NCBI GenBank assembly: GCA_038880555.1
Contig: JAVZRN010000003.1
Location: 1 to 64,000, forward strand
Source of the DNA: Candidatus Bathyarchaeia archaeon
GTDB taxonomy: Archaea > Thermoproteota > Bathyarchaeia > Bathyarchaeales > Bathycorpusculaceae
Direction: 5' to 3'
Length of the DNA stretch: 64,000 nucleotides
This document shows positions 4,389 to 51,860 of this stretch, piece by piece. How positions within the stretch are numbered: the first letter of the stretch is position 1; every line of letters starts with the position of its first letter. Position numbers and translations under genes: made by a program. The notes under the pieces were generated by a model. That model had not been told where the DNA came from. It ran no database searches and worked only from the letters and a program-made list of their open reading frames with translations.

Positions 4389-5763
4389 GTGGGGCGCAAG
4401 TATAGAAGTGAGGTGACTGACGGCATACTTTATTGCCTGGTCTCGCACGATAGGGGTGTTTTTGAGTCGGATTTAGAGGAAGATGTAAGGAATCTAGGGA
4501 AGAAATTGGGTTTTCATGTCGACCACTCCACTTTTCATGACCACCTTAATTCTTTGGAGAGACCTGGTTTTTTAAGTGTGCGTCCGTCTATTGAAGCTGG
4601 CAAGAGAGCCCCTAGAACAGTTATTAAACCTAAGTTCTTAACATATCTCTATGCTCTTTATAGCTTCAAGCATGCTACTGATAAAACTCGTTGGGCCCTC
4701 CTAAACGTGCATCTCGAGAAGTTGCTGGAACTGCTTCGCGGCAGTCTCGCAGACCACTTCGAGAATTATATGGAGTCCATAGCTAAGCTCTATGAGGAAG
4801 ATCCTGACTTAGCAGTGTTGGCGAGGACTCTAGGCCATATATTAACGCATGGCGAGAAAAGATCCATTATACTAAATGATGATTTTCTGGCCGAGCTGGC
4901 GAAGGAGGTTTTCAGTGGAGGTGCTTTTATGCTCGCTGGAGAAACCATGGACCTCGACGATCTTGAGAAAAACTATCCAAAGACTCTGCTAAATCTGTAC
5001 TCCAGCATTTCTAAAGTTTTAATTCAGTTCCTGAGCACCAAAAAAGATCTAAAACCTCTTGTTGATGTTTGGCTCTCGACGCTCAAGGATGTTTTTCCAT
5101 TGCTCCCTTTAGAGAGTAGGGCAGCCCTCGCGGCGTCTATAAAGAGCGAGCTATACCCATATTACGCCAAGATGATGCGAGGGTTGCCACCCGGAGTCGC
5201 ATCTGAATATAAAAGAAAGATTAAAAGCGTTAGCTCTGAAGAAGAGGTGGTTCTGATCTTTCAATGTTCAAAGTGCTCTCGCTTAAATGTCATTGTAAAG
5301 AACGTCTTTGAGTTTATCGAAGAGGGGACGTTTGAGTGTGAGGCATGCGGTTATAAAACGCCTTCTAAACTCGCTGTAGACAAGTATTTTCTTAAATGGG
5401 CTGAAGAAAAGTACATTCCTAAGCACCTGATACCAACATTAGCTACGCTTCTTGCCAAAATGAGTATTGTGACATGCCGAGTCTTGGTTCACAGAAACAT
5501 AGCTATACTTGGCGCGCCTTGCACGATAGAGGGAGAGGTGGAGCCACCCCATCCTGAATGCACCGTCACGTTAATCGCTACTGATCCGGAGGGGCACTGT
5601 CCATACATTTGATACCTTAACCGATGCTGATGGCAAGTATAGATTCACATGCACGTTCGAGAAGTTTGGGGTGTGGAGTTTACGTGTGTCTTGGAATGGT
5701 GACGAGGATCACTTGGGCGCTTACAGCGAAAACGTAGAACTCCTCGTCTACAAGTTCGACTAG
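4389..5763 (+). pseudogene. Winged-helix / zinc-ribbon / Ig-like protein, interrupted by one frameshift
   Basis: From GTG 4389 (probably leaderless; AT-rich TATA-like sequence at about 4355-4385) the frame encodes a winged-helix-like N-terminus, a long helical middle and a Cys4 ribbon (CSKCSRL, CEACGYK, about residues 295-325). It then enters an Ig-like or carboxypeptidase-regulatory-like strand region and stops at 5612. In the next frame the domain continues without a break (TFDTLTDADGKYRFTC onward) to a TAG at 5761. Removing one G from the GGGG run at 5591-5594 restores one 457-residue frame; the total length is 3n+1, as one extra base predicts. Either a sequencing/assembly error or a young pseudogene. 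Function unknown; a DNA-binding or signalling protein is a guess. Confidence 0.65.
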
Positions 5764-7352: not shown

Positions 7353-8510
7353 ATGCCGCTTTCGGCGGAAGCAGCCTTTATTTGGCTGCTCTGTTCATCG
7401 GCCTTTGGGACGGTCCCGGGACGGTCCCGGGCATGGTGGGAGGACGGTCCTTTGGCCGGAGAAAGCTTGAAGCGCCTTGAAGAGTTGAAAAAGCGGTTGG
7501 AGGAGCAGGCTAGGGCTTTGGATTCTTTAGCGTCCAGCGTCGAGGGCGGCGGTGGCGGGCTAGGCGAGTTGATGAGGCGTGTTGAGAAGCCTTGTGAAGC
7601 TTTGGGCGGTTTGGCTTCTGAAGCTAGTGTAAGCGAGAGTCTAAGCGGTGTCGGTGTTCGCGTTGAGAAGCCTAAATTTGTTTTAGTTTGGCCTGAGACG
7701 CGAGAACTGTTCTTGCAGTATTTGGAGTTTAAGCGTTATGAGCCTGCTAATGCGCGGAACATGCTTAGCTACTTGGACAGGTTTGTTAGAGCGCCAATTG
7801 CTGCGCCCTTGGATGTTATGCGGATTTTCTCGCCATTATCTGTTGGGCAGCGTCACCACTTGAACAGGGCTATGAGGGCTTGGTTCAAATGCCTTGAAAT
7901 CAACAGCCCCAGCAGGGAGTTTAGGGAGTTTCTCAACGACTTGAGGAGGGCTATTCCTAAAGATGAGGTTGGCATAGACGTCCACGTGCCAGAAGAGGAG
8001 CAGATAATCTCAGATTTAAGGCGGATTAAATACGAGCCCATAGAATTTCAGGCGGCCTACAACCTTCTACTAGATTCAGGGCTAAGGGTTGTGGAAGTTG
8101 AAAGGCTCCTAAACAACTTTCCAGAGGCCGAGCGATTGAGGGGCTTCTACCGCTGTCCAGTAGGCTTCTTCAGAGGCACAAAGCAGGCCTACTACTGCTA
8201 CCTGACAGAATACACGTTCCAACTTATAAAACGGTGCACTAGGCCAGTCAACAGGCTCCTGATAAGTAAGTGGTTCCAAAACCACGATTATACACGCGCG
8301 AAGTATCTGAGGAAATTTGCCAATGACATCATGACAAGCGAGAGGCTGAACATTCCTGAAAGCGTTGCAGACTTCATTCAGGGCAGGGTTCCAAAAAGCA
8401 TCGGGGCAAAGCATTACATGAAGCTTAAACGTAAAGCAGACCAGTTCTACCCAAGATACGCACAATATATAACAGACTTGCGGAAAAAGGCTGGAGTATT
8501 AAGGGTCTAA
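7353..8510 (+). CDS. SSV/pNOB8-type integrase next to tRNA-Arg
   Basis: The C-terminal half has the archaeal spindle-virus integrase pattern: Arg in LDSGLRVVEVERLL, Lys in FRGTKQAYYCYL, K-x-x-R in AKYLRKFANDIM, and the closing QGRVPKSIGAKHYM with His-Tyr. The open frame runs back into the tRNA, but those codons are tRNA sequence. ATG 7353 is the first start outside the tRNA. TTG 7467, preceded by GGAG, is an attractive alternative because the DNA between consists of hairpins and repeats, and the product from TTG begins with a normal coiled coil (KRLEELKKRLEEQARALDS). The gene is intact, unlike the split integrase left by SSV-type integration. Confidence 0.8.
   Translation: MPLSAEAAFIWLLCSSAFGTVPGRSRAWWEDGPLAGESLKRLEELKKRLEEQARALDSLASSVEGGGGGLGELMRRVEKPCEALGGLASEASVSESLSGVGVRVEKPKFVLVWPETRELFLQYLEFKRYEPANARNMLSYLDRFVRAPIAAPLDVMRIFSPLSVGQRHHLNRAMRAWFKCLEINSPSREFREFLNDLRRAIPKDEVGIDVHVPEEEQIISDLRRIKYEPIEFQAAYNLLLDSGLRVVEVERLLNNFPEAERLRGFYRCPVGFFRGTKQAYYCYLTEYTFQLIKRCTRPVNRLLISKWFQNHDYTRAKYLRKFANDIMTSERLNIPESVADFIQGRVPKSIGAKHYMKLKRKADQFYPRYAQYITDLRKKAGVLRV
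7370..7450. repeat. Hairpin and tandem GGGACGGTCCC repeats before the integrase body
   Basis: A perfect 7-bp hairpin AGCAGCC-TTTATTT-GGCTGCT lies at 7370-7390. Two exact tandem copies of GGGACGGTCCC (a near palindrome) follow at 7407-7417 and 7418-7428, and a third core GGACGGTCC at 7442-7450. They sit between the tRNA attachment site and the likely integrase start, where arm-type binding sites or integrase control elements would be expected. The role is inferred. Confidence 0.55.
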
Positions 8511-8594
8511 AACTTTCTTTTTTATTTGTGAAAAAGTTAAGTGAAAGCCCCAGGACGGTTATTTGGCCCATCCTATTATAAAATATGCAAAGCG

Positions 8595-8723
8595 TTAGAG
8601 GATCGGCTTCTGTTTCTTTTTGTTAATTTCCATCGCAAAACATTTTGAGCATACTCCATTATATCGCAGCAATTCCCATAACGAAGTTTTACGACCGCAG
8701 TATGCGCACTTACCTACTTTCAT
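8595..8723 (-). CDS. 42-residue zinc-ribbon protein
   Basis: A short frame starting ATG at 8723 and ending TAA at 8595. It encodes CAYCGRKT near residues 6-13 and CSKCFAMEI near residues 25-33, that is CxxC-x15-CxxC, a typical small zinc ribbon, with a Lys-rich tail. It lies 56 bases downstream of the restriction endonuclease gene on the same strand and could belong to that operon or to the island at large. The spaced Cys pairs make a chance frame unlikely. Confidence 0.6.
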   Translation of the reverse strand: MKVGKCAYCGRKTSLWELLRYNGVCSKCFAMEINKKKQKPIL

Positions 8724-8778
8724 GTCAAGCATCAATTAAATTCGCTAAGACCTTAATATTTTTGTAAACAGCGCAAAC

Positions 8779-10602
8779 CTAACAAGTTTGCTTTGCTCGC
8801 CAATCAACCCACTTCTCGAGCGAAAAGCTTTCAGTTACATCTTGTACATCGTAAGTTTTAGGAACACTAACTATGCCTTGATTTATTCTAAACATATTGT
8901 CCTCACCAGTTCGCCATATTTTCCACTGTTTCATATCACGTGTTATGTAAACAAAATAATCTAGCTCCTTTAGGTCTAACTCCTTGATATGATTAAGAGT
9001 AAATGCGTTGCTTGCCCAAAATCCTACCCCTATCTTTGTCACCGTATTGACGGATACTGGCGCGAAAATTTTCTTGAAGTCGTTAAGACCTTGAATGTAT
9101 TCTTGTTCTGTCTTAAACAATGATAACTTATCTATTCTCTCTTGGACATCACGTCGAGCATACTCACCTGTGTTTTCCACAAGATTTGTTACTTTTCCAG
9201 GCAAAAATGAAATTATATCAATGTATATTCTTGGTTGGCGGCGTCCTGTTTTTGGCTGAACAAGAATTCTTCGGTCTCCTTGGGCTCCTGGATAACTCAC
9301 TGCAATTATTTTGTATCCGTTAGGCTTAAGTATGTTATGAATCACTATGTAAGTTACATCGTCTTCATCAAGCTTCTTTCTTTCTGTGATCGGTGTTACT
9401 TCAGGGTGATCTTCATAAGCATGAAGCTCATGATATGGCTCCCATTTAAATATAACTTTCCTTTGACCAGTATCGTCTTCAATGACGAAAAGTTTTGAAA
9501 AAATAAATATTGTTTTTAACGGCTTGCTCAAGCTATGTAAATTCTTTTTAATAAATTCTGTAAGGTCAATTACAACGTTATCTGCGTCATAATTTTCATA
9601 TGCAGCTACAACGTCCATAAATTCTTCATTTGCATACAGACCTGATCCAAGAGCGAAGCAATACAAGAAGTCATATACGCTAACAAGACCTTCATTAACA
9701 AGCTGCCTTATTTCATCCTCCTTTGGTATGTCCTTATACCATGCATCAGTAAAACGGCTAAACACCATCTTAGATATAACATTCGACGTCAAAGTTCCAT
9801 AATAAGCTAACATTCCTCTTTCGGGATCCATCGCATGTCCAAATCTATTTAGTTTAACCTCTAATGCCTCTGAGTTTAATATAGGGTCTCTCTTAATGTA
9901 ACGCGTTCTGGAAGTGTTTAGTTTAGATACATCTATTTGGGGGCTATTTCTAAGTTTACTTAACCACTTCTTAAAAAAGTCGATTCGTTGCAGCACATTA
10001 CAGACATTATCAATCCATTCCTTTGAATATCCATTATTTGTAATTTCCCTAATTATTGCTGAAAGCAAAACTTCAAATTCAGGTATTGGTTCAGGACATG
10101 AACAGTATTCCTGATCTGTTATTGCCATTCCTTTCTCGTCACATTTCCATTCAAAGTGGAAATAGGGTTTACGATATTTCAAGTAAATTAATCGGAATGG
10201 TTGTGTATAATCAAATTCAATGTTCCCTCCATGTTCATAAGGGGACATTTTTTCCGTAGGAGATATTTTTGCGTATAGGGCGTTATTCTTTGCTGCTGCA
10301 ATCATTCCATCAAAACGTTGAAGTTCATGATCTTCTGTAAAAACAGCGGTTGAAAATTCTACAAGAATCAGCGGGTATTCTTCATTGCCATCCACTACGC
10401 TTATTAGTATATCGGGCTCTTTCCAAAAGATTATAGGAGCTAACTTTTTGCTATAACTTTTGTAGTTTCCAGTTAACTTAATTAGCTTAATATCGACGTT
10501 TCGAGCTTCTCTCAGCGCCTTCTGTAATATTGGAATGATATAGTGGTAGGCTTGTTCTATAGATTCATAATACACCCTAAATTCCTTAATCATGATCACC
10601 AT
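8779..10602 (-). CDS. Putative type II restriction endonuclease
   Basis: About 607 residues. The N-terminal part holds a PD-(D/E)XK-like core: PDILISVVDG near residue 65, then ILVEFSTAVF about 17 residues on, with Ser where Lys is usual, followed by EDHELQRFDG. The middle and C-terminal parts are not recognised. The gene follows two DNA methyltransferase genes and overlaps the stop of the nearer one (TGATG), so an endonuclease role is mostly from context. GTG 10605 and ATG 10593 are other possible starts. The segment is clearly more AT-rich than its surroundings, a sign of transfer. Confidence 0.6.
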   Translation of the reverse strand: MVIMIKEFRVYYESIEQAYHYIIPILQKALREARNVDIKLIKLTGNYKSYSKKLAPIIFWKEPDILISVVDGNEEYPLILVEFSTAVFTEDHELQRFDGMIAAAKNNALYAKISPTEKMSPYEHGGNIEFDYTQPFRLIYLKYRKPYFHFEWKCDEKGMAITDQEYCSCPEPIPEFEVLLSAIIREITNNGYSKEWIDNVCNVLQRIDFFKKWLSKLRNSPQIDVSKLNTSRTRYIKRDPILNSEALEVKLNRFGHAMDPERGMLAYYGTLTSNVISKMVFSRFTDAWYKDIPKEDEIRQLVNEGLVSVYDFLYCFALGSGLYANEEFMDVVAAYENYDADNVVIDLTEFIKKNLHSLSKPLKTIFIFSKLFVIEDDTGQRKVIFKWEPYHELHAYEDHPEVTPITERKKLDEDDVTYIVIHNILKPNGYKIIAVSYPGAQGDRRILVQPKTGRRQPRIYIDIISFLPGKVTNLVENTGEYARRDVQERIDKLSLFKTEQEYIQGLNDFKKIFAPVSVNTVTKIGVGFWASNAFTLNHIKELDLKELDYFVYITRDMKQWKIWRTGEDNMFRINQGIVSVPKTYDVQDVTESFSLEKWVDWRAKQTC

Positions 10603-36921: not shown

Positions 36922-39036
36922 ATGGAGGAGCCCAGCCAAGCCAGGGGCATAGTGGGCGTTCACGCTCAGATGCTGATAGACAGCATCAACAAGAGGCTCT
37001 CCGAGGCCCACGCTGGAAGGGGTGGCCTCGAGGCCTTAAGTCAATTCCTCGACCAAGTGGACTGGGTAGAGGAGATCCGCCCGCTGAAGGCACGGCTAAA
37101 GAGCCTCACTCTCCTCTTCGAGCGGGCCCTCGGACAATGCAGCAAGGAGATGATGGCTAGACCGCTCGGGAAACGCTACTTCGAGATCACAGAGCAGATG
37201 GGGTTCATCTGCCCAAAGTGTCGCAAGCTCGTGAGCACCGTGCTGGCCGACCATTTAAAAGAAAGGTGCCCTGATTGTCAGACGAAGCTCAAGTCGGCCT
37301 ACACTTACTCGCTCATGTCGCTTGTAAAGGATGGCGTCTTCCCACGCCAGCTACCTGAAGCCGTGATGATGAATTTCGCCTACGACGCCCTTGCCGACGC
37401 CTACGTCGACGCTTACAAGGCCTTCGGGCTGGCCATGCAGGAAACCGCCAAAAGGCTCGGCTGGGAGTTTTTCTCCCTCGACCCGAGGACCGACTTTTAC
37501 CTCGACGGCCTGTTCTACGGAAGGTTCGCGGGCGAGCAGAAAATCCCTAAGGAGGAGAAGGAGTGCCTGCAATTCTTGGCAAGGGGCAACCTGGCGATGG
37601 TCCCCTTTGAAAAGGCCGAGAAGCTCATCAGGCTCGCCATAAACGTCGTCAAGTTCGGCTACCTCGCCGAGGTCTTACGGATTCCAGGCGCGGAACAGAA
37701 GTACCGCGACTTGGTCGAAGAATACAGCGCACTCTACGACGAAATCAACTCCTACATAAGGAAGGTCAAGCCCGAGCTTTTCATGCCAAAGAAGCCTGTC
37801 TGGAAGTTTAAGCGTGGAGGCGGATACTATGCCCCTTGCTTCAGGCTCAACAAGGCGAGCTGGACGTCCGGGCAGATTGCGGGCCTCGCTGTTCTCGAGC
37901 CCCTCTACAAGCTTCCCGTTTTCTCCAAGGCCGACATGGGAGCCGTCCAAACGGTTTACGGGCGTTTCGGAAGCGGCAAAACCTTCCTCTTAAGCTCGCT
38001 GATATGCTACGCCTTCTACAAGCGCTACGAAACCGCCCTCATCCCGCTCAACGACAAGACCAACAGTTACAGCCTCGCGGCCCTTCCCATGTTCGGATAC
38101 AGCCGCAACACGACCAAGCTGCTGAAGCTTTTGGACGTCTTGGACGTCGAGCCCAAAGGCATCCCGACTATAACCGTGACGGTTCTGCGGAAGGGCGAGG
38201 AGATAGAGGACCTAGCGAGCCATCCGCCCACGATCTTCGACAGGGTCATCGAGGTCGAAAGCTACCGCAACTTCACCCCCGACTTCAATATATTAATGTC
38301 CGAGCTGAAGGCGGAGGCGGAGAAGCACGGGTTGAGCGTCCCAGCGGGCATAATCGCCTTCAGAAACCTCCGCAGGGAAATAAGCGACAAGGTCTACGTA
38401 GACGTCCAAGTGGCAACCCGCGTTATAGAGGCGTTTGACGACTGGCGAAAGGGCCACATGAGCCGACCCATGCGCTTGGTGCTGGACGAGGTCAGCTACA
38501 TGGCGACAAGCTACGCCGTCAAGCACGCCATGGACAAGCTCGTGGCCGGAGCCACCATAACCGACTTCTTAAAAGAGGCTAGGCGAAACAACGTAAGCGT
38601 AGACGCAGCCACCCAGTTGCCCGTTGAAATCATGAGAGGCTTGAGGGGAGCCGCCACAAACATCTTCTTCCGCGACCTCCAAGCCGAACGCTCAAGGCTA
38701 AAAAGCCCCATAGACGTGCTCCTCGAGCAGCTCCAGCTAAAGGACGAGCCGCTCAAGCCCATAATCCGCGATATGAACGTTCGGGGCGCGTTGCCGAAGG
38801 GCCTATGGTTCTGGTATCACCAGCCGAAATACGACATCCAAGTAGTCAGGCCCGCCCCGCCTACGTTCTGCATCTACGACCCTGAAGCCAAAATGTCGCC
38901 CCTTGAGATAATCAGGGCATACGAGAGGGAAACCCACCAGAAAATCCTCCTTAAAAGCTGGAACGAGGTCAAGAGGCTCGAAGCCAAAAGCGGCGGAAGA
39001 CGAGGCGAGCTGCCTAGCACCTTCCTCTACGGCTGA
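36922..39036 (+). CDS. Zinc-finger P-loop ATPase, possible DNA packaging or transfer motor
   Basis: 704 residues. A zinc ribbon (GFICPKCRKLVSTVLADHLK, then CPDCQTKL, about residues 95-125) precedes an ATPase domain: Walker A YGRFGSGKTFLLSSLICY near residue 350 and Walker B MRLVLDEVSYMAT near residue 517, with DAATQLPVEIMRG as a sensor-like segment. It belongs to the broad HerA/FtsK/VirD4-like group by these motifs, though homology was not tested. In archaeal viruses and plasmids such motors package or transfer DNA. Last of the rightward block starting at 32988. Confidence 0.65.
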   Translation: MEEPSQARGIVGVHAQMLIDSINKRLSEAHAGRGGLEALSQFLDQVDWVEEIRPLKARLKSLTLLFERALGQCSKEMMARPLGKRYFEITEQMGFICPKCRKLVSTVLADHLKERCPDCQTKLKSAYTYSLMSLVKDGVFPRQLPEAVMMNFAYDALADAYVDAYKAFGLAMQETAKRLGWEFFSLDPRTDFYLDGLFYGRFAGEQKIPKEEKECLQFLARGNLAMVPFEKAEKLIRLAINVVKFGYLAEVLRIPGAEQKYRDLVEEYSALYDEINSYIRKVKPELFMPKKPVWKFKRGGGYYAPCFRLNKASWTSGQIAGLAVLEPLYKLPVFSKADMGAVQTVYGRFGSGKTFLLSSLICYAFYKRYETALIPLNDKTNSYSLAALPMFGYSRNTTKLLKLLDVLDVEPKGIPTITVTVLRKGEEIEDLASHPPTIFDRVIEVESYRNFTPDFNILMSELKAEAEKHGLSVPAGIIAFRNLRREISDKVYVDVQVATRVIEAFDDWRKGHMSRPMRLVLDEVSYMATSYAVKHAMDKLVAGATITDFLKEARRNNVSVDAATQLPVEIMRGLRGAATNIFFRDLQAERSRLKSPIDVLLEQLQLKDEPLKPIIRDMNVRGALPKGLWFWYHQPKYDIQVVRPAPPTFCIYDPEAKMSPLEIIRAYERETHQKILLKSWNEVKRLEAKSGGRRGELPSTFLYG

Positions 39037-42463: not shown

Positions 42464-42660
42464 CGCCCTTCACCACCAGAGAAATTTTCCGCCCATATCA
42501 ACAATAACTCGAAAACCGCCTTGACGAAGCATACGAGGCAGTTAGGGCTGTAATAACATTGCTTGGTGTTCCTCCCGTGATACAACCACTCGAGCATTCC
42601 TCTCCCTCAATTGATAAATGCGTGCCGTTAGTTTCGCTATTTTTCCTTCGGGATGCCTCG

Positions 42661-43605
42661 ATGGAGATAACCCTTGGACCGGAGGCGACGGAGTTCCTTG
42701 GGGCTCTGAGGACGGAGAGCACGCGACGCCAGTACGCGGAAGCCCTGGAACACTTCTCGCGTTACCTCTTCAACACCTTCGGCTTAACCATCAGCGACTT
42801 TCTCGCAGAGGCCGAGGCTGATTTGGCGAGGCCGAGCCTTCAGAAGACGCGTTTCGCCCGCAAGGCCTTGACTGGGTTCAGCGAGTACCTGACGCTCATG
42901 GGGAAGGCCCCGAAGACGGTGAACTGCTACGTCAGCGTAATCCAATCTCTTGCGAAATACTACGACATCCCGATAAGCCTCAAATTCGTCCCACGTCCGC
43001 CAGTAAGGCCCGTCAACAAGAAGCACGATTGGACCATCCACGAAATCGGAAGGTTCGTAGAGCTCATGCCAGACGTCCAGTCCAAGTGCATAGCCGCCAT
43101 CATCGTCCAGAGCGGGCTGAGCATCTCCGACGTCCTCGCCCTCAAATACGGCGACATCCGAGAGGAGTACGAGGGAGGGAAGTGTCCCCTATGCATCGCC
43201 ATATCTCGCCAGAAGACAAACGTCCAATTCTTGACCTTCATAGGGGAGTGGGCTTTGTCGCTTCTCCGACGCCACCTAAAGGGCAGAAGGCTCTCCGACG
43301 ACGACCCCATCTTCACCCTAGCCCGCACGACCGTCGATAAATACTTCCGGAAGGCTGGAAGGAAGTTCGGCTCTTTCAAGGGACGCAACCCGTACAGCCC
43401 GCACTCCCTCAGGGCAGCCTTCAGCACCATTTTAAGGGATCACCAGGTGAACGACATCTACGTCGAGTTTTGGCTGGGACACAAGCTTCCAGAACAGCAG
43501 CTCGCCTACATCAGCAAGAGCCGAGAGAGCTGGAGGGAAACATACCGCACGTTGGCGGAGCCTTGGCTTACCCCGCCGAACTTCAAGACCGCGTTACACG
43601 TGTAA
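42661..43605 (+). CDS. Tyrosine recombinase with Arg I replaced by Ser
   Basis: 314 residues. ATG 42661 is chosen because the leader motif (42639-42645) and a GGG stretch precede it. SAM-like N-terminal domain to about residue 110, then the catalytic domain: QSGLSISDVLALKYGD where the first catalytic Arg is expected (GLR in the 5760-7037 homolog), ISRQKTNVQFLTF with Lys, PHSLRAAFSTIL with HxxR, and FWLGHKLPEQQLAYIS with His and Tyr. Only Arg I is missing (AGC codon). It may be impaired, may use another residue, or need a partner. Confidence 0.75.
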   Translation: MEITLGPEATEFLGALRTESTRRQYAEALEHFSRYLFNTFGLTISDFLAEAEADLARPSLQKTRFARKALTGFSEYLTLMGKAPKTVNCYVSVIQSLAKYYDIPISLKFVPRPPVRPVNKKHDWTIHEIGRFVELMPDVQSKCIAAIIVQSGLSISDVLALKYGDIREEYEGGKCPLCIAISRQKTNVQFLTFIGEWALSLLRRHLKGRRLSDDDPIFTLARTTVDKYFRKAGRKFGSFKGRNPYSPHSLRAAFSTILRDHQVNDIYVEFWLGHKLPEQQLAYISKSRESWRETYRTLAEPWLTPPNFKTALHV

Positions 43606-43933: not shown

Positions 43934-44488
43934 ATGAGGCCGAGGACGAAGGCGCCTCTCCACGTCTACATCCCGGTCTGGCTCTACGATAACATTAGGC
44001 AAATCTGCGAATCTCAAGGCTTTAAGATGAGCCGGTTCGTCAGCGAGATACTCGAGGGCTGGGCGAAGACGGCGAAAGTGACCGAGGAATTGAGCTACGA
44101 GCCTCTTAAGAGGCAGTATCGCCACGCCGTTCGCGAGTTTAGAAAGTTCAAGAAGCTCATGCAAAAGGTTGACTCAGACGCAGAGATGCAGAACCTGGCG
44201 TTGAAGCTGGGGCTTGACACGGAATCTCTCAGCAACGTGGACGAAGTAATCGCAAAGCTGCTCGCCGAAAGCAACCACATCGACGAGAGGCTGCACTTCT
44301 TCATAGACTACCTCGAGGCCGCCAAACACATGGTGGACGTGGGGAGAAAGCTGACCGAGATGCGCAAGAAAAGGTATTTATCAAGTGGGGGTGTTGGCAA
44401 CGCCGAGGCCAGACCCGATACACATCCCGTTCGAGCATCTGAAGGCGTGTCCCAAGTGCGGGAGCACGAAACTGAAGATAATACATGA
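43934..44488 (+). CDS. RHH-like DNA-binding protein
   Basis: 184 residues from ATG 43934 (GGGAGG before it). The N-terminus APLHVYIPVWLYDNIRQICE with FKMSRFVSEILEGWAK is an RHH-like strand-helix-helix. The rest is helical. It begins the long rightward run containing the MoxR/VWA genes and the tagged proteins, and could regulate it. Confidence 0.6.
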   Translation: MRPRTKAPLHVYIPVWLYDNIRQICESQGFKMSRFVSEILEGWAKTAKVTEELSYEPLKRQYRHAVREFRKFKKLMQKVDSDAEMQNLALKLGLDTESLSNVDEVIAKLLAESNHIDERLHFFIDYLEAAKHMVDVGRKLTEMRKKRYLSSGGVGNAEARPDTHPVRASEGVSQVREHETEDNT

Positions 44489-44612
44489 TGAGAAGTTCCC
44501 ATCCGAGGAAGGCATTACCCGCCTTGTAATTTACCGTTGCCATAAGAACCATGAGTTTCGCAAACGGCAACCTGTCGTCCGCCAGTTCAATATGCCCCCC
44601 GTATGGAAGTGA
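44385..44612 (+). CDS. Small zinc-ribbon protein
   Basis: 75 residues, overlapping the RHH-like gene by about 100 bases unless a later start (TTG 44394) is used. Contains HLKACPKCGSTKLKIIHDEK and YRCHKNHEFRKR, that is CxxC plus C-x-x-x-H/H-type ligands, a likely zinc ribbon. Stop overlaps the MoxR start (TGATG). Confidence 0.5.
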   Translation: MGVLATPRPDPIHIPFEHLKACPKCGSTKLKIIHDEKFPSEEGITRLVIYRCHKNHEFRKRQPVVRQFNMPPVWK

Positions 44613-45964
44613 TGGGCGTGACCAAGCTAACCTATTCGCCCAGGGCTGTCGCTGTTTTTACCTATTCGCGTAAGCCCAAGAACCTCAAGCCCGGGAAGGT
44701 CAGGGTTTTAAGCTATCGCGGAAAGCGTGTCAGGGTTATGCTGGACCCTACCGGAAGACGACTCAAGGTTTTGGAAGCGCCCAAGGACTTGATCCCCGTC
44801 ATCAAGAAGGCTGAAACCCTCCAGGTATCGGACGGCTCATTAAGGGTAGTCTTGAAGGAAAAAGCCGAGCCCAAGCACAAACCGAAAAAGCCGGAGCCAG
44901 CCCCGCCAGAGCCTCCGAAGGAAGAGGAGCCTCCAAAGGATGAGAAGCCGAAGAAGCCGACGCCGAAGGTAGAGGAGAGAGTGGTGAGCGCCCTCTCCGA
45001 AGAGCAAAGGCGTAAGGCTATGTTCGTGCCCGTGCCCGATAAAGGCCCTATACCGACGCCGTACATCGATTGGAGCCAGATCCCAGATTACTGCAAGGTT
45101 TCCGACGTAATCTACGTGGATTATCCAATTCCAACAGCCCCGAAAGGCTTGCTGCCGGAGCTACGAGAAATGTTCCGCAGAAGCCGACGCTACCAGCATA
45201 AGGCGCCCGTCAACATATTGATCTGGGGACCGAAAGGGACGGGCAAAAGCGAGGTTGTTAAGGCCTTCGCGGCTGAAACCGGGCTTCCGTATTGGCACGT
45301 GATAGGTGAGGAAGGCTTATCGTCGGACGAGCTCATAGGCCATTGGGAGCTGAAGGACGGCAAAAGCGTCTGGGTTGAGGGCATCATCCCGAAGGCCGTC
45401 AGGCTCGGCGGAATACTTCACTTCGACGAGGCAAACGTCATAGACCCCGAGGTTCTGACTCGCCTGGACGAGCTCCTCGACAGCAAACGCCAGCTAACCA
45501 TCAAGGAAACCGGCGAGGTCATCAAGGCGCATCCAGACTTGTTCATAGTTTTCACCATGAACCCGCCCATCTACGAGGGCTTGAAGAACCTGCCTGAGCA
45601 CATCCGTAACAGAATCACAAAGCGGTATTGGCTTGACTACCCGCCCCTGGATGTTGAGCTCAAAATACTCAAGGAGAAGTTGGGACTTTCGGACGACGAC
45701 TTGAAGCTTCCGACGAAGACCGAGCCAATAGCGGGAAAGCTCGCTCGCGACGTCATGGACGTGATGAAGATAGTCAGTAACCTCCGCAAGCAAACGGACT
45801 TAAGCTACACGCCTTCAATCCGCGACGTCCAAGCCTTCGTTCAAGACCTACTCGAGGGCGACGACTTCTTCACAGCCTTCGACCGCAACATCAAAGGCGC
45901 CTATTATGGCGAGGAAGTTGACCGTATTGAGGAAGCGTTGAGGGCTGTGAGGCGGAGAGAATGA
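44612..45964 (+). CDS. MoxR-type AAA+ ATPase
   Basis: 450 residues from ATG 44612. A basic N-terminal region and a Pro/Glu/Lys-rich linker (about residues 85-125) lead to the AAA+ core: Walker A ILIWGPKGTGKSEVVKAFAA near residue 205, Walker B GGILHFDEANVIDPEVLTRL near 270, sensor 1 FTMNPP near 315, and arginine-finger region HIRNRITKRYW. MoxR proteins pair with VWA proteins as metal-insertion or assembly chaperones, and the VWA gene follows with a 4-base overlap. The N-terminus (TKLTYSPRAVAVFTY) is only loosely like the Y-x7-Y tag. Confidence 0.82.
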   Translation: MGVTKLTYSPRAVAVFTYSRKPKNLKPGKVRVLSYRGKRVRVMLDPTGRRLKVLEAPKDLIPVIKKAETLQVSDGSLRVVLKEKAEPKHKPKKPEPAPPEPPKEEEPPKDEKPKKPTPKVEERVVSALSEEQRRKAMFVPVPDKGPIPTPYIDWSQIPDYCKVSDVIYVDYPIPTAPKGLLPELREMFRRSRRYQHKAPVNILIWGPKGTGKSEVVKAFAAETGLPYWHVIGEEGLSSDELIGHWELKDGKSVWVEGIIPKAVRLGGILHFDEANVIDPEVLTRLDELLDSKRQLTIKETGEVIKAHPDLFIVFTMNPPIYEGLKNLPEHIRNRITKRYWLDYPPLDVELKILKEKLGLSDDDLKLPTKTEPIAGKLARDVMDVMKIVSNLRKQTDLSYTPSIRDVQAFVQDLLEGDDFFTAFDRNIKGAYYGEEVDRIEEALRAVRRRE

Positions 45965-47751
45965 GCTATCGCCCTAAAACCGAAATAAGCTATTCGGTTA
46001 GGCGACCCAAAGCCTTCAAGCCCATGCTCAAGGCGAAGGCCATCTCCGCGAGGGCTAAATCCGTTGCGGTCCCGAAGGTGAGCAGCTCAACCGTCGCAAA
46101 CGTCATAGACGTCGCCAACTTCCTATCGCGTTACATCAGCGGCGAGCAAAACATCGTCCTGGCTCCTGGATTGTATAGCGGGTTTTCGGCGTCCAAAATG
46201 CAAACGCCACAAGGGAGAACCTACTTCAAAATCAACGTTCCTTCGTGGGATAAGTTTGAAATAGGGGTCAAGGGCTTCGACCGTTACAGAATATACCGCT
46301 ATGGGGTCTTCCACGAGGCGTGCCACGTCAGATATACGCCGCCAATCCTCTACGCGGTTAGCGACCCGGTCGTGCACGATTTAGTCAACATAATCGAGGA
46401 CAGGCGAATCGAGGAGAACGGAGTCAAGGAGTGGCCGGGCTACCTTCCCGAGCGGATATACGCGACGGCCTACGGTTACGCACTCCGCCCGCCCGTCGAT
46501 CAGATAGGCGACAGGGACCAGAGGCTCACCGAGGCTTTTATGCAGAAATACCTTACGGGGAAAATTAAGGGGAAGCTCGACCCATCCGAGAGGAAGCTCG
46601 TCGATGAAGCCGTAAAGATAGCCGAAGATGTCCTCAAGGAGTTCGAGGGCGACATGGAAAGGGGCGGTTACGGCATGGGAGCACGCATCATACGCGCCGC
46701 AGAAGAGATCAAACGTCTGCTCAACTTACAAAACCCGATGCAGAAGAAGACAAACAGCCACTCGCCGTGGGAGGACACTTTCACGCCCGATTATTATAAG
46801 TCGGGCCAGCACCCCATGAGCGAAGACGACGTCCAAAAGGCCGTTGAGGAGTTCGTCAGGGAGCTGAAGCGCGAGGCGAAGAAGTGCAAGGACGAAAAGA
46901 AGTCGCCGCTGGAGATCACAGAGGAAGACGTGGAGAAAAGCCTTGAAGGAACAGCCGAGGTCAAGGACGAATACGAGAGGATACAAAAGGAGGAGAAGGT
47001 GGACCCAACTCTTGTTCAATGGAGCCGAGCGGCCACTCAGGGACCGCTAATCGGGTACAGGGATGAGAGGTTCATCCAAGCCATGAACACCTACTTGCAG
47101 GCGTGGCGGGAAGGCTACCTCCGAATAGTCGGTAAGACGGGCACGACCTTCAGCGTCAAGGAGTACGTCAAGCACAAGGACGAGCCCTTCGTCACCAAGC
47201 TCAAGCAGACCGTCAAGCGCAAGAAGATTCTGATCCTCGCAGACTTCTCAGGGAGTATGCGAGATAACGAGGATGCGTATAAGAAGGCGATAATAAGCAG
47301 CCTAGTTGTCCTCGACGGCATAGGATGCAACATAGGCTTCTTCACATTCGCGAGTGACCCGGCCCTAGGAAGCGGGTACTACCGCATCAAGACCTTCGAG
47401 GAGCCCAAGCTGACCAAGACGCATCTTGCCAAGATCGCGGGATTGGAAGCCCGTTATCCATGCACTCCGACGGCGACGGCGTACAGCGGTTTGCTTAGCT
47501 ATACGGTAAAGCACAAGCCCGACGTCTTCATAACCATAACGGACGGCGACCCCGACAACGTTCAAAGGACGTATGAAATGGTTAGGATGCTGAAGCGACA
47601 CACTCGCATGGTCGCCTACGGCATAGCCAATGACCAGGGCATCAGGGAAAAGATGGAGAAGGACTTGAAAGGCTTCGGCTACCACAAGTCCTTCGCCGTC
47701 ACAGACGTCCGCGAGATCCCGCCTAAACTCGTGCAGCTCATAATCTCATGA
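45961..47751 (+). CDS. VWA-domain protein with N-terminal tag and HEACH motif
   Basis: 596 residues. It opens with the shared tag (MSYRPKTEISYSVRR). Near residue 117 is GVFHEACHVRYT, an HExxH-like zinc site followed downstream by HDLVNIIEDRRIEENG, the pattern of a metallopeptidase-like fold also seen in VWA/CobT-type proteins. The C-terminal VWA domain has the MIDAS motif LADFSGSMRDN near residue 427 and FITITDGDPDN near 525. It probably acts with the MoxR ATPase on element proteins; target unknown. Confidence 0.78.
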   Translation: MSYRPKTEISYSVRRPKAFKPMLKAKAISARAKSVAVPKVSSSTVANVIDVANFLSRYISGEQNIVLAPGLYSGFSASKMQTPQGRTYFKINVPSWDKFEIGVKGFDRYRIYRYGVFHEACHVRYTPPILYAVSDPVVHDLVNIIEDRRIEENGVKEWPGYLPERIYATAYGYALRPPVDQIGDRDQRLTEAFMQKYLTGKIKGKLDPSERKLVDEAVKIAEDVLKEFEGDMERGGYGMGARIIRAAEEIKRLLNLQNPMQKKTNSHSPWEDTFTPDYYKSGQHPMSEDDVQKAVEEFVRELKREAKKCKDEKKSPLEITEEDVEKSLEGTAEVKDEYERIQKEEKVDPTLVQWSRAATQGPLIGYRDERFIQAMNTYLQAWREGYLRIVGKTGTTFSVKEYVKHKDEPFVTKLKQTVKRKKILILADFSGSMRDNEDAYKKAIISSLVVLDGIGCNIGFFTFASDPALGSGYYRIKTFEEPKLTKTHLAKIAGLEARYPCTPTATAYSGLLSYTVKHKPDVFITITDGDPDNVQRTYEMVRMLKRHTRMVAYGIANDQGIREKMEKDLKGFGYHKSFAVTDVREIPPKLVQLIIS

Positions 47752-47761
47752 GGTGAGTTGA

Positions 47762-48649
47762 ATGAGCTACGCGCCCAGACCCCGCCAACCTTACCACGTG
47801 AGAAGGGTGAGGCAGATGATTTCAGCCTCTCCCCAGCACCACCTCGCCTTCAGAAACGAGTGGGAGTCAAACTTCGACAAGGCCTACCAACAAGCCCTCG
47901 CCCTCAAAAGCCAGGGCTACTTGGTCGATGAAGGGCTCCGCCGCGGGGCCATCATGGAGAGCGAAGCCAAGAGGCTGGCCGCAGCCTACAAGAGGGGAGG
48001 CTGCGAGGTCCAGCTTATCCCGATCGCCAGGTGGGGCAACGAGCGGGTGGTCTTCCTCGTCCACAAGCCGCCCAAAGGGGCGGAGCCTTCGCCAACCACG
48101 CCGAGCAAGCCCAAGGAACCAACAGTAAAGGAGGTCGAGCATCCGCCGGAGAAAGTGATGGAGATGTTCGTGGCGTCCTTCCAGGCGGCGCCGAACCAGC
48201 TAGACAACCCCCAGAAGCTCCACGACCGCGGGTATTTGATCGACAAAGACCGCTTCATAGGGCTGATAGACCCAGACTCGCCGTGCACCGAGCCGTTGGT
48301 CGAGATGGCGAGAGAGGCCCGCACTAGAACGGCGACCGCGATAATCATACCGAACACGCCGAGCTTCAGGAAACTCCTGGTGTCAAAGGCGAGGGACTAT
48401 CCCGTGGTGACCATCGACCAGGCTGGGAACAAGGGCCTCAACGTGCAGAGGCTCGTGAAGGCGTTGAAGGTATTGGGCGACGGCTACGTGAAGCTCGAGC
48501 CCTTCAGCGACCAAGTCCTCAAGCCAGCCTATCTTTTCAAGGATAAGGGCTACGCGATTTCGATAGCGCCCATCGCGGATCCGTCTGATCCAAAGCTTCC
48601 GATGGACACCGTGATTTCCGAGTTTAAAGGTCAAGCTGGGACATCATGA
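47762..48649 (+). CDS. Tagged hypothetical protein (Y-x7-Y)
   Basis: 295 residues with GAGGTGA before ATG 47762. N-terminus MSYAPRPRQPYHVRR is the shared tag. Two similar halves may exist (KSQGYLVDEGLRRGAIMESE and HDRGYLIDKDRFIGLIDPDS), separated by a Pro/Glu/Lys linker (PSPTTPSKPKEPTVKEVEHP), suggesting an internal duplication of a small alpha/beta unit. No known family. Confidence 0.55.
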   Translation: MSYAPRPRQPYHVRRVRQMISASPQHHLAFRNEWESNFDKAYQQALALKSQGYLVDEGLRRGAIMESEAKRLAAAYKRGGCEVQLIPIARWGNERVVFLVHKPPKGAEPSPTTPSKPKEPTVKEVEHPPEKVMEMFVASFQAAPNQLDNPQKLHDRGYLIDKDRFIGLIDPDSPCTEPLVEMAREARTRTATAIIIPNTPSFRKLLVSKARDYPVVTIDQAGNKGLNVQRLVKALKVLGDGYVKLEPFSDQVLKPAYLFKDKGYAISIAPIADPSDPKLPMDTVISEFKGQAGTS

Positions 48650-49068
48650 GCTACAAGCCCCGCAGACGGCCGATTTACGTGCCGCTGACGAGGTTCACGA
48701 GGCCCAATTACTTTTTTGGAATCTCTAAAAAAGTCAAGATTCCCGTTGCGAAAGCGGACGCCCTCATCACCGACGACTCTCTAGAGGCTTTTAAGCAAAA
48801 CGTGGCCGCTCGCGGAACCCCAAAAGAGGTCGAGCAGATTTGGCTCCACGACATCAGCGAGGCCGTAATCGTCAAGTGGCCCGATGGATGGCGGACCGTC
48901 TATGGCGTGAAGAAGACAAAATCCGTCTACTATTGCCCCAAATGCGTGGATGAGCAGAAGGGGTGCCCCTATTACTTCAGCCCCGGTTACTGCCCGAAGC
49001 ACCCTGACACCGAGCTGATCCGCGACGAGGAGCTGACGGAGAGGCTCCGCAGAGAGGGACTCCTCTAG
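48646..49068 (+). CDS. Tagged zinc-finger protein (Y-x7-Y)
   Basis: 140 residues from ATG 48646, overlapping the preceding stop. N-terminus MSYKPRRRPIYVPLTRF carries the tag; the PLTRFT extension is shared with the protein encoded at 49861. The C-terminal part has YYCPKCVDEQKGCPYYF and GYCPKHPDTEL, a multi-Cys zinc-binding module. Possibly nucleic-acid or partner binding. Confidence 0.6.
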   Translation: MSYKPRRRPIYVPLTRFTRPNYFFGISKKVKIPVAKADALITDDSLEAFKQNVAARGTPKEVEQIWLHDISEAVIVKWPDGWRTVYGVKKTKSVYYCPKCVDEQKGCPYYFSPGYCPKHPDTELIRDEELTERLRREGLL

Positions 49069-49090
49069 CCCCTCATTTTTCCTTTAGGTG

Positions 49091-49567
49091 ATGCCTCTGC
49101 CGCGTTATAGGGCGTCAGCCGAAGGAACGTACGGCGTCCGTGCCAGGATTTTTGTGCCGAAGGGCTTGTCGCCGAAGGAGAGGAAGCTCTACAAGGCTTT
49201 AGCCATCAGGCCAGCGGGCGAGTGGAGCCGCGACCTGCTCGAGAACACGGAGGGCGGGAAGCTGCTGGCTGTCGGCCACTTCGTCCACGTTAAGAAGGTT
49301 CTAGCCAAGGAGAAGCCCAAGAGCAAGAGGGAGCTCGAGGCCGCCCTTAAGAAGGCGATGATGTCGCCTCAGCAACGCCTCGTCATACTATACGAGAAAG
49401 GCTTGAGGATGCCCCTCTCGGACAAGGAGTTCCGCGAGTACCTCGAGCTCTTCAAGGAGTGTTTCCCGAACGCCTACGAGAGCCTCTACGGCAATAAGAG
49501 CCCGAAGCAAGTGGTCGCCGAAGCATTAGGACCGTCGCTAATTAGGCGTAAAGGGTGGCCTATATGA
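49091..49567 (+). CDS. Tagged hypothetical protein (Y-x7-Y)
   Basis: 158 residues from ATG 49091, after a leader motif (49075-49081) and AGGTG. N-terminus MPLPRYRASAEGTYGVRARI keeps the seven-residue Tyr spacing but shifted by three residues. The rest is basic and helical (SPKERKLYKALAIRPAGEWS, ELEAALKKAMMSPQQRLVIL). No family recognised. Confidence 0.55.
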   Translation: MPLPRYRASAEGTYGVRARIFVPKGLSPKERKLYKALAIRPAGEWSRDLLENTEGGKLLAVGHFVHVKKVLAKEKPKSKRELEAALKKAMMSPQQRLVILYEKGLRMPLSDKEFREYLELFKECFPNAYESLYGNKSPKQVVAEALGPSLIRRKGWPI

Positions 49568-49851
49568 AGTATAGGTCTAGGTCCAGACCTAACTATTCGC
49601 CCGTGGAAAGATGGCGAGCAAGGGCGTTTAGGACGGCTAGGCCCCGCACCAAACGCTACGTCGTGCAGTATGAGGCGATCGTGGACGGGCAAAGCGTCAC
49701 GGATATGCTCTACGTTTTAGGCTCGTCGGAGAAGGAGGCCCTCATGAAGGCGAGAAACTTCGTCAAGAGCCTCCATCCCAAGGCGAAGGGCATAGCCGTC
49801 GCCATCCGCGAGGAACACTCGATTCCATGGCCGCCAAAGAAGCCTAAATAG
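49564..49851 (+). CDS. Tagged small protein (Y-x7-Y)
   Basis: 95 residues from ATG 49564, overlapping the preceding stop. Tag MKYRSRSRPNYSPVERW, then an Arg-rich linker and an alpha/beta domain (RYVVQYEAIVDGQSVTDMLY, EALMKARNFVKSLHPKAKGI). The domain looks like a small ferredoxin-like fold; no specific family. Confidence 0.55.
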   Translation: MKYRSRSRPNYSPVERWRARAFRTARPRTKRYVVQYEAIVDGQSVTDMLYVLGSSEKEALMKARNFVKSLHPKAKGIAVAIREEHSIPWPPKKPK

Positions 49852-49860
49852 GCGAGGGGC

Positions 49861-50139
49861 ATGAAGTACCGCCAAACTCGGAAGCCCAAGTATCAGCCCC
49901 TGACGCGGTTCACCTTCGCCCGCTCGCCCCAAGGCTTCCCGCCGAAGGTCAGACGCCTCCTCTCCCGCAAGGACGTGAAGTTCGGGTATGTTAGCGAATG
50001 CCCGTTCTGCGAGAAGGAGTCCATGATAGTTTTCCACGTCGAGGACCCTGAGAACCCCGGAAACTTTTACGTGTGCGGAAACCCCGAATGCGGAAAATAC
50101 GCGGAAGTCGAGTGGTACCCGCTTAAGGGAGGACCATGA
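49861..50139 (+). CDS. Tagged zinc-ribbon protein (Y-x7-Y)
   Basis: 92 residues from ATG 49861. Tag MKYRQTRKPKYQPLTRFTF, closely like the 48646 protein. The C-terminal half is a zinc ribbon: SECPFCEKESMIVFHVED, then YVCGNPECGKYAEVEWY. Last gene of the 43934-50139 run; the convergent gene 50282 follows across the palindrome region. Confidence 0.6.
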   Translation: MKYRQTRKPKYQPLTRFTFARSPQGFPPKVRRLLSRKDVKFGYVSECPFCEKESMIVFHVEDPENPGNFYVCGNPECGKYAEVEWYPLKGGP

Positions 50140-50187
50140 TAGACGCGTCACACGTTTGACGCGGGCACTCATTACGGTTTTTATTGG

Positions 50188-50290
50188 TTTTCATAGCTGT
50201 GAAAACGAGCTTTATACGGTTTTCCGCTATATTGTGTTGCGAGGGTTAGAATCGCAATATTGCAGTTCCGAATTTTCATAGCTATGAAAA
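50188..50290. promoter_or_regulatory. Candidate partition centromere: two palindromes plus dyads
   Basis: TTTTCATAGCTGTGAAAA (50188-50205) and the perfect palindrome TTTTCATAGCTATGAAAA (50273-50290) flank an inverted repeat TTGCGA-N9-TCGCAA (50237-50257) that runs into the palindrome GCAATATTGC (50254-50263). The region lies between the 3' ends of convergent genes, so promoter control is unlikely; terminator or ParB-binding (parS) use is more plausible. Same 18-bp site as at 33933 and 33985. Confidence 0.55.
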
Positions 50291-50635
50291 ATATGAGCGG
50301 ATGATGAGGTAGTTTCTCACGCCCAAGACCAAGTGAGCAAGCCCGAAGCAGGCGATTGTCATCAGCGCCACTTGGTAGTGGGTTGTGCCACGTGGCACAA
50401 TTCTGGGAGCATACAACGTGAGCGCTATCAAAGTCGCCGTCACCAAGACGTAAACCGCAACGAAGCGTTCATGCTCTAGGATTTGAAATAGCGGGTTCGA
50501 TTCGGCAAAGCCTATGATGGTGTCGCCAACCCTAATTTCGCCGACGCTTAAAAGGACCTCTGTGGTCGCAAGATCCAAGGCTGAACCCACAACTAAGAGG
50601 ATCAACGTCGCCTTCTGTAAAGCGTCGAGCCTCAC
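50282..50635 (-). CDS. DUF5658-like membrane protein
   Basis: 117 residues with about three membrane helices (KATLILLVVGSALDLATTEV, VAVYVLVTATLIALTLYA, VALMTIACFGLAHLVLGV). The pair SALDLATTEVLL and FAESNPLFQILE is the pattern of DUF5658-type integral membrane proteins. Its stop codon is inside the 50273-50290 palindrome. Divergent leader palindrome at 50648-50665 lies 12 bases upstream. Confidence 0.6.
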   Translation of the reverse strand: MRLDALQKATLILLVVGSALDLATTEVLLSVGEIRVGDTIIGFAESNPLFQILEHERFVAVYVLVTATLIALTLYAPRIVPRGTTHYQVALMTIACFGLAHLVLGVRNYLIIRSYFS

Positions 50636-50647
50636 GTCGCCCCGTTT

Positions 50648-50665
50648 GAAAAATCGCTATTTTTC
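50648..50665. promoter_or_regulatory. Divergent leader palindrome GAAAAAT-CGCT-ATTTTTC
   Basis: Second instance of two leader motifs facing away from each other with a 4-base spacer, between starts at 50635 (leftward) and 50681 (rightward). The spacer sequence differs from the copy at 41405, so only the arms are conserved. Confidence 0.65.
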
Positions 50666-50680
50666 TATTGGTGAAACGCC

Positions 50681-50854
50681 TTGGGAAGGCGCTACAAGGT
50701 TAAGGGACGCCCTGGACACTACGTGGTGCGGGACAAACGCGGGCGATTCAAAAGGTGGGCCAGCATTCACAGAAGCATAAAGGTCGATGCCAGAAGAAAA
50801 GTGGGGATGAAAAGGCGACAGTCGGGATACGGGCACATCCAGGACTACGGCTAG
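50681..50854 (+). CDS. 57-residue basic tagged protein
   Basis: A short frame from TTG 50681, with GGTGA eight bases before it and the leader motif at 50659-50665. N-terminus MGRRYKVKGRPGHYVVRDKR resembles the tag, with an eight-residue rather than seven-residue Tyr spacing. The whole product is strongly basic (RGRFKRWASIHRSIKV, ARRKVGMKRRQSGYG), suggesting nucleic-acid binding. Followed by another tagged gene after 15 bases. Confidence 0.6.
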   Translation: MGRRYKVKGRPGHYVVRDKRGRFKRWASIHRSIKVDARRKVGMKRRQSGYGHIQDYG

Positions 50855-50869
50855 GCGGGGTGTTGCCTC

Positions 50870-51268
50870 ATGGCGAGGTATGGGCGTCAAAGGCAGTCCA
50901 GCTACGACCGCACAATCCTCGTCCACGTGAAGCCGACCGCTTATAGGCGAGGCGGCAAGGTCATTAAGCGGAAGGGCTACACGTACAGGCGCAAGGACGT
51001 GGGCAAGCCTGGAAAGGGACCGAAGCTCATCGTCATAAAGGAGAAGGGAGCCCTCCGCAAGCACGGGTACAGCGTCAAGAAAAGCGAGGCCGCCAGACAT
51101 AGAGCCCTAGCCTCGGCCGTGGACGAGTATGGAGCGTTAAGCGTTTTCCGAAAGCTCATGGCCCAATACGTGTTCAGGAAACGCTACGACCCCAAAACTG
51201 CCGAAGTCTTCAGGCAAGACGCCGAGTGGGTCCGCGACCGCTATAAGATGAACGGCTTCGTAAGCTGA
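50870..51268 (+). CDS. Tagged basic protein (Y-x7-Y)
   Basis: 132 residues from ATG 50870. Tag MARYGRQRQSSYDRTILVHV with seven residues between the Tyr residues. Very basic first half (RRGGKVIKRKGYTYRRKDVG) then a helical C-terminus. Likely nucleic-acid binding; possibly a virion or nucleoid protein. After it, 51269-51370 holds no gene except a T-rich stretch and the next leader motif. Confidence 0.55.
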   Translation: MARYGRQRQSSYDRTILVHVKPTAYRRGGKVIKRKGYTYRRKDVGKPGKGPKLIVIKEKGALRKHGYSVKKSEAARHRALASAVDEYGALSVFRKLMAQYVFRKRYDPKTAEVFRQDAEWVRDRYKMNGFVS

Positions 51269-51370
51269 CATCCCCCTTTTTCTTTAAGAGCATCCGAGGG
51301 AAGCCTTCAAGGAACAATACATCAAGGGCTCCGAATGCGTGTTCAAGAGGTTTTTCCTTCGGGGTAGATG

Positions 51371-51631
51371 ATGGCTGGCGCTGTCGGCGTAATTGAGCAG
51401 ATAATCCGTGGCTTGTCGATCGTAGGCAACGCCATAACCCAGGGCATAAAGATGCTGTTCGGCTACCTCGGAGTAACGCTCCCTGACTACGCCATAACCG
51501 TCGCCACGATAATTTTCCTAATACTCTTGCTTTACAAGTTTGGAAACGCCATAAACAAGATCATCCTAATCGTCCTGATCTTCCTTTTGCTGTCTAGCTG
51601 TGCTGGCCTCTTGACGCCGCTTTTCGGATGA
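51371..51631 (+). CDS. Small two-helix membrane protein, candidate coat protein
   Basis: 86 residues from ATG 51371 (ATG 51368 also possible), leader motif GTTTTTC at 51350-51356. An amphipathic N-terminal region (AVGVIEQIIRGLSIVGNAIT) is followed by two hydrophobic helices (AITVATIIFLILLLYKFG, KIILIVLIFLLLSSCAGLL). Size and layout resemble major coat proteins of spindle-shaped archaeal viruses, but such small membrane proteins are common; the assignment is a guess from context. Confidence 0.5.
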   Translation: MAGAVGVIEQIIRGLSIVGNAITQGIKMLFGYLGVTLPDYAITVATIIFLILLLYKFGNAINKIILIVLIFLLLSSCAGLLTPLFG

Positions 51632-51653
51632 TTTTTCCTTTGGGAGAGCGAGT

Positions 51654-51860
51654 ATGCGTTATAGGAGTAGAGCTTCCCAACCGTATAAGCCACGGCGATT
51701 GTCGAGGAAAAAGGTCATTTTCAAGGCGAAGCTGCTGAAGCATCTGGGTGACAGCCACGAGGCCCGCGAGCTCACGGGAGAGGATTTGGACGCGTTGTTC
51801 GAGGATTACAAGAAAAGCGGAAAGTCCTTCAAAGATTGGGTAAAACAATTCCGCGACTAA
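51654..51860 (+). CDS. Tagged small protein (Y-x7-Y)
   Basis: 68 residues from ATG 51654, leader motif at 51631-51637 starting at the last base of the previous stop. Tag MRYRSRASQPYKPRRLSRKK; then a short helical domain (AKLLKHLGDSHEARELTGED, FEDYKKSGKSFKDWVKQFRD). It sits between two membrane protein genes, the last tagged gene seen. Confidence 0.55.
   Translation: MRYRSRASQPYKPRRLSRKKVIFKAKLLKHLGDSHEARELTGEDLDALFEDYKKSGKSFKDWVKQFRD

Follow-up and report, generated by a model that had tools for sequence, protein, structure and literature searches.

Many phages and archaeal viruses encode a MoxR-type ATPase together with a VWA protein, pairs for most of which we know of no established target. 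In Acidianus two-tailed virus (ATV), the MoxR protein p618 is a major virion protein and binds the VWA protein p892 as well as virion proteins (PMC4124505). In T4, the capsid targeting sequence (CTS), a conserved N-terminal segment of highly diverse internal proteins, encapsidates these proteins (PMC3012670), and LPD domains, among them LPD29, stem from polyvalent proteins that are thought to be injected together with the DNA of mobile elements (PMC5512222). Here we describe short N-terminal heads (tags) on unrelated proteins of element W, a GC-rich integrated element of about 33 kb (~30.5-63.3 kb, positions 30500-63330, no strand assigned) of a Candidatus Bathyarchaeia archaeon. The window, i.e. 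the whole stretch of 64,000 nucleotides that was analysed, belongs to contig C3 of a 1.75-Mb genome; the open reading frames (ORFs) come from a simple calling rule, and the binning of metagenome-assembled genomes may err. W is compared with the elements A (genome G087), B (genome G228, contig C45), C (contig C25 of the same genome), D (genome G032, contig C117) and E (genome G089, contig C28).

Within the tagged block of W (44603-51860), six proteins encoded on the plus strand begin with M-x-Y-x7-Y, as a preliminary description of this DNA had reported, and its coordinates are confirmed: the VWA protein with an N-terminal HExxH (zincin-like) domain (45961-47751; tag MSYRPKTEISYSVRRPK, 45961-46011), a protein of 295 amino acids (aa) (47762-48649; tag MSYAPRPRQPYHVRRVR, 47762-47812), a cysteine-rich protein of 140 aa (48646-49068; tag MSYKPRRRPIYVPLTRF, 48646-48696), a protein of 95 aa (49564-49851; tag MKYRSRSRPNYSPVERW, 49564-49614), a cysteine-rich protein of 92 aa (49861-50139; tag MKYRQTRKPKYQPLTRF, 49861-49911) and a protein of 68 aa (51654-51860; tag MRYRSRASQPYKPRRLS, 51654-51704). 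These six copies are sure. One further copy is likely: the 158-aa protein at 49091-49567 (plus strand) has its tag PRYRASAEGTYGVRAR offset by three residues (49100-49147), and one of the 485 host N-termini introduced below reaches its score when shifts are allowed. Two copies are tentative. The basic protein at 50870-51268 (plus strand; C-terminal DUF5771, E 8.8e-16) starts with the variant MARYGRQRQSSYDRT, which is weak by itself, with 63/485 host N-termini reaching its score; its homologue on element C (8471-9019) starts with MTRRRVRKRRSSKRV and the two basic heads differ. DUF5771 is known from large DNA viruses of eukaryotes and its presence in an archaeal element was unexpected. The second tentative copy, absent from the preliminary list, is the degenerate tag TYSPRAVAVFTYSRK at residues 10-24 of the MoxR-type AAA+ ATPase (44603-45964, plus strand; AAA_5, E 5.5e-23, with a Walker A motif); it aligns with the N-terminus MSYKKTAIASFNYAKR of a relative and is not significant alone (20/485). 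The ninth protein of the preliminary list, a member of a conserved family of small proteins (50681-50854, plus strand), is rejected: its look-alike RYKVKGRPGHYVV scores well, yet the homologue 5594 of element B (67% identity) keeps the same residues internally and has no B-type tag, pointing to plain homology.

The host control consisted of stretches of the same genome (439 kb), with 485 ORFs of at least 60 aa and 1947 alternative starts. The strict M-x-Y-x7-Y is present in 6 of 38 curated W genes and absent from all 485 host ORFs (Fisher P = 1e-7) and from all 1947 alternative host starts; the possibility, named in the preliminary description, that host proteins have such N-termini equally often was thus checked and the answer is negative. 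Scored by leave-one-out profiles, all six tagged proteins rank higher than any host N-terminus. When soluble N-termini with unrelated bodies were compared all against all, with no motif assumed, W had 9 similar pairs out of 171 (53 per 1000, compared with 0.9 per 1000 in the host), and all nine fall among the tagged genes plus MoxR. The tag set was initially chosen by eye, a concern answered by this unsupervised test and by the independent contigs A and B. A short head shared by unrelated bodies of W therefore exceeds chance.

Element A lies on a 25-kb contig (contig C151, PLSP01000011.1) on which a zinc-ribbon protein, MoxR and VWA are found together. Here two genes, separated by one base, each encode one half of the VWA protein (reverse-complement positions 2883-5625), and the halves match the single protein of the window. 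Both halves and MoxR have their own heads: MAYRPAANKAYGQ on the first VWA half, MAYNRKTSSSGSYMQ on the second and MSYKKTAIASFNY on MoxR. A profile built solely from the window, with G087 not in the training set, ranks MoxR and the two VWA halves above all other N-termini of the contig (the three highest scores are 12.0, 5.2 and 1.7; the next is -5.1). No internal tag was found in the unsplit VWA protein of the window at the place that matches the second start in A. A tag at the new N-terminus of the C-terminal half makes a functional requirement hard to avoid as an explanation. In the split protein, there is one CxxC pair at the end of the first half and a further one near the start of the second, as though the two chains jointly formed a zinc ribbon. 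In W, an untagged zinc-ribbon protein (44385-44612, plus strand) precedes MoxR; similar proteins stand beside MoxR/VWA in A (1087) and in B (7405).

Element B has a different and stronger shared head, common to MoxR, VWA, the proteins 9709 and 10674 and an ATP-dependent DNA ligase identified by Pfam (blastp E 1e-5 to 1e-13), with the consensus [EV]V[IV][GA]FY[KT][DE]E..R.RPITK (GFYxDE..RPITK module). In the MoxR of B the module is internal (residues ~80-138), following a zinc finger. A hidden Markov model of the B tag, run over 257 genomes of the class, has matches in G228 only, five of them on C45 and one, a remnant, on C25. Since B-tag matches are confined to G228, the tags differ between elements while MoxR and VWA stay homologous (36-37% identity between W and B). 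There was no match of the B and W tags in phage records, of the DNA pattern of the B tag in viral contigs or of the B-tag profile in the PDB. The B tag may resemble bacterial GYYRKDGTYVRPHYR motifs.

Orthologous bodies bear different tags across elements, and homologues outside these elements bear none. Element E carries the window-type ATPase (41% identity), and its homologues of the ligase, 10436 and 9709 of B adjoin one another. The 9709 homologue of E has no B tag but starts with MKKPKTTQQYVVKRK, like the VWA head of the window (blastp E 0.01; 0/485 host N-termini reach its score). Its neighbour 14687, with an N-terminus given as MPGYKKSGKKQY and MPGYKKSGKKQYDQRQ, shows Y-x7-Y (8/485) and carries an LPD29 domain (E 5e-12); no LPD or polyvalent domain was found among the tagged proteins of the window. 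In G206, G002 and G210, the 9709 family is untagged, with the ligase adjoining in G206 and G002; the G206 ligase also has an N-terminus with no tag. Three proteins of element C begin with M-x-RRRVR, which may hint at a further tag. Element D shares one structural gene with W and has neither a detectable MoxR nor shared soluble N-termini. The presence of MoxR/VWA thus goes together with tags (both in W, A and B, neither in D), a suggestive pattern from few independent cases; a search for MoxR in G089, the genome of E, found none, but its contig stops within the ligase gene and E is not scorable. Scans of viral contigs with single proteins or two sequences (MoxR, VWA, 50681 and 9709 families) returned no tagged relative. 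A ~260-aa family is found beside the ATP-dependent DNA ligase in several elements or chromosomes of Bathyarchaeia (L090:13136-15700, L098:11276-13014, L100:1478-3150 and G228:C45). One member matches Ku with an E-value of 0.015, which is below the cut-off, and hhalign to genuine Ku is negative; the family is perhaps a very diverged Ku.

The split VWA gene of A, the different shared tag of B and the exchange of tags between elements bear out the preliminary claim of a short head on different bodies. The head is a portable, basic, element-specific N-terminal module that behaves as exchangeable between bodies. Plain shared ancestry, with the tagged proteins as diverged duplicates and the head as a conserved but functionless remnant, would explain why 48646 and 49861 have 38 residues in common and both end in cysteine-rich segments, and why 9709 and 10674 are similar beyond the tag. 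The remaining bodies, however, are dissimilar: pairwise comparison of the tagged W bodies, a check for one diverged family that the preliminary description had proposed, detected no mutual similarity at E<0.2, and among the bodies are AAA+ and VWA/zincin proteins and the DNA ligase of B. Moreover, headless homologues exist, and the start of the second VWA half in A arose with the split, so that its tag cannot be an ancestral one. Shared ancestry is therefore largely refuted and very improbable.

Tagged genes overlap or abut, and the first codons could act in the mRNA, in initiation or coupling of packed genes. Identical tag residues, however, share their codon in just 28 of 81 pairs, with 39% nucleotide identity, so that the tag is conserved at the protein level rather than being a recent copy of DNA. 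The internal position of the module in the MoxR of B and the equally tight packing of the untagged genes in the tagged block also speak against such a signal at the level of translation, which is largely refuted and hardly credible.

The VWA protein adjoining MoxR has the same MIDAS sequence (DxSxS) in W, A and B: DFSGS. Relatives of the W MoxR are annotated as CbbQ/NirQ/NorQ/GvpN. A search of the phylum with the VWA protein found mainly chromosomal pairs of Nitrososphaeria, and these serve as untagged controls: their VWA proteins start near residue 46-57 of the window protein, where the tag ends. HExxH...E is kept in the VWA proteins of the elements and is replaced by WYEAM in the Nitrososphaeria relatives. 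The VWA partners of tailed phages (Gray, L085) also keep it, and the versions of elements and phages may be active peptidases, with a processing role for the zincin motif. This is relevant to a rival explanation, the head as a client label of the MoxR/VWA machine: VWA or its zincin domain would bind the head and MoxR would remodel, or the zincin cleave, the labelled protein, in parallel to the activation by NorQ/NorD or CbbQ/CbbO or to a maturation protease. Retention of HExxH...E fits such a machine, as do shared heads in every element with an identified MoxR/VWA pair and their absence from the soluble N-termini of D, which has no such pair. Foldseek places NorQ-NorD VWA complexes first among its matches for the VWA protein (NorD VWA, E 1e-4), from a low-confidence model; this AlphaFold model is poor (mean pLDDT 48) and offers no basis for judging the tag. 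Against the client label, MoxR and VWA are tagged themselves (in A even both VWA halves), and a machine has no need of labels on the subunits that make it up. In addition, no tagged neighbours were found for the MoxR/VWA pairs of the phages Gray, S-CAM3 and L085; the L085 pair, from a tailed phage, is the sole match of the VWA profile in viral contigs and has no tags. Given also that the co-occurrence comes from very few elements, we regard a pure client label as rather unlikely. Recognition by the MoxR/VWA pair, one of the preliminary suggestions, is possible, but tags on both proteins fit co-localisation better.

A second preliminary suggestion was that the head binds DNA. The first 20 residues of the tagged W proteins have net charges of +5 to +9, compared with a host mean of +1, Arg-rich heads are also present in B and C (MxRRRVR), and several of the bodies are DNA-related. 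A simple Arg/Lys- and Tyr-rich tail that recruits proteins to the DNA of the element, with no protein receptor, could account for these features. Charge, however, requires neither two tyrosines at fixed spacing nor the precise GFYxDE..RPITK module on five proteins, and we consider such a tail alone improbable. DNA binding is compatible with the reading that we favour and may be its physical mechanism.

We favour, with a probability of roughly 0.45, an exchangeable address tag that loads proteins into one assembly, most likely a delivered nucleoprotein particle. A partner encoded by the element would read the tag and diverge with it, in a lock-and-key fashion. The tag would gather MoxR and the VWA/zincin protein, together with proteins that handle DNA (the DNA ligase with its partner, the LPD29 protein, the basic DUF5771 protein and zinc-ribbon proteins) into an assembly that is delivered to the next cell, either a virion or a comparable DNA-delivery complex, in which MoxR and VWA would act as a remodelling machine. 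Co-localisation is favoured over a pure client label because the machine, MoxR and VWA, is tagged as well; the DNA-handling proteins of the set fit travel with, or action on, incoming DNA; and loading of a delivered particle is favoured because LPD proteins are proposed to be injected with DNA and because MoxR p618 is in the ATV virion. These data agree with the preliminary suggestion that the tag may serve to load a virion or compartment. Several points weigh against the address tag. The known elements are few (W, A, B and part of C and E), the evidence from E is moderate and its contig breaks off within the ligase gene, and the tagged cassette of A stands amid genes that look chromosomal, the rest of the contig having no recognised element genes. 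No virion, capsid protein or receptor was found, the structural genes of W have no match in 50,697 phage records, and the functions of ligase, MoxR and LPD29 could equally be intracellular. We propose tentatively that these elements represent an archaeal family in which fast-evolving, element-specific tags and a matching receptor, which would lie either in the particle or in the MoxR/VWA machine, serve to load a tailored set of cargo; this set would include the chaperone ATPase, VWA/zincin, DNA ligase and LPD-type proteins, with tags exchangeable on the same bodies.

The borders of W were set by GC content alone (~55% within, ~42% outside), and no att repeat was found at them. Pfam and PHROGs identify ParB (30593), a TFIIB-type zinc ribbon protein (31714), a P-loop ATPase that weakly matches terminase (36922-39036) and an intact tyrosine integrase (42559-43605). 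As the integrase sits well within the GC-defined borders, and att repeats were not found there, the stretch may consist of two adjoining elements. Downstream of the tagged block are many membrane and large surface proteins. An 87-aa protein in the tagged block (51368-51631) has two hydrophobic segments and recalls the coat proteins of spindle viruses, with no match in databases or PHROGs. Fusellovirus-type coat proteins VP1 and VP3 are a trait of known Bathyarchaeia virus families, e.g. Huangdiviridae (PMC10848311). W may be viral, conjugative or of another kind.

The tag marks the set of proteins that belongs with the MoxR/VWA pair, and a pull-down with a tag peptide could name the receptor; the element-specific tags are also a natural test of the co-evolution of tag and receptor. 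No report of such tags was found in a non-exhaustive search of the open-access literature. MoxR and VWA of W are of the NorQ/NorD-CobS/CobT kind: as in CobS/CobT, NorQ/NorD, CbbQ/CbbO and the CobS/peptidase pairs of phages, an AAA_5 ATPase adjoins a VWA protein, and the phage partners of Gray and L085 share the HExxH. The pairs that were checked (Gray, S-CAM3 and L085), however, share no N-terminal tag with their neighbours. W and ATV are alike in that an archaeal element combines MoxR and VWA with ParB and an integrase, but the N-termini of p618 and p892 are unlike each other, and tblastn of the VWA protein, the ATPase and the 53380 protein of W found no match in phage records, ATV included, and thus no homologous structural proteins of the ATV or Bicaudaviridae type. 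ATV was also considered as a second tagged system and rejected: p653, p387 and p362 are homologous along their whole length and not via a tag. The ATV pairs gp48/gp50 and gp32/gp33 (NC_007409) show short N-terminal identities (MSSNYxxPDVxR and MSTTF) on largely different bodies, which could be a similar but weaker phenomenon. With polyvalent proteins, the tagged set shares the proposed travel with DNA, and LPD29 is present in the tagged 14687 of E; those are fusions of effector domains, whereas here separate proteins have a short common head. A close parallel is the CTS of T4, where proteins of a single genome that are otherwise unlike likewise have a short N-terminal segment in common. T4-type tags further entail packaging of their bearers in the prohead core and removal by a prohead protease; in W, the VWA protein has an HExxH domain. 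The motif of the CTS family is of the MKT[YF]-x-EF type, while the heads of W and B, M-x-Y-x7-Y and GFYxDE..RPITK, are by inspection not this motif and not homologous to it. The setting differs too: an archaeal, non-T4 element in which the remodelling machine is itself tagged and tags vary from element to element. Should the head serve for loading, it would amount to a portable cargo tag of archaea and could be used to tell which proteins travel together in elements yet to be characterised. By sequence it is not a member of the T4 CTS family, but it would be an analogue that works by a similar logic.

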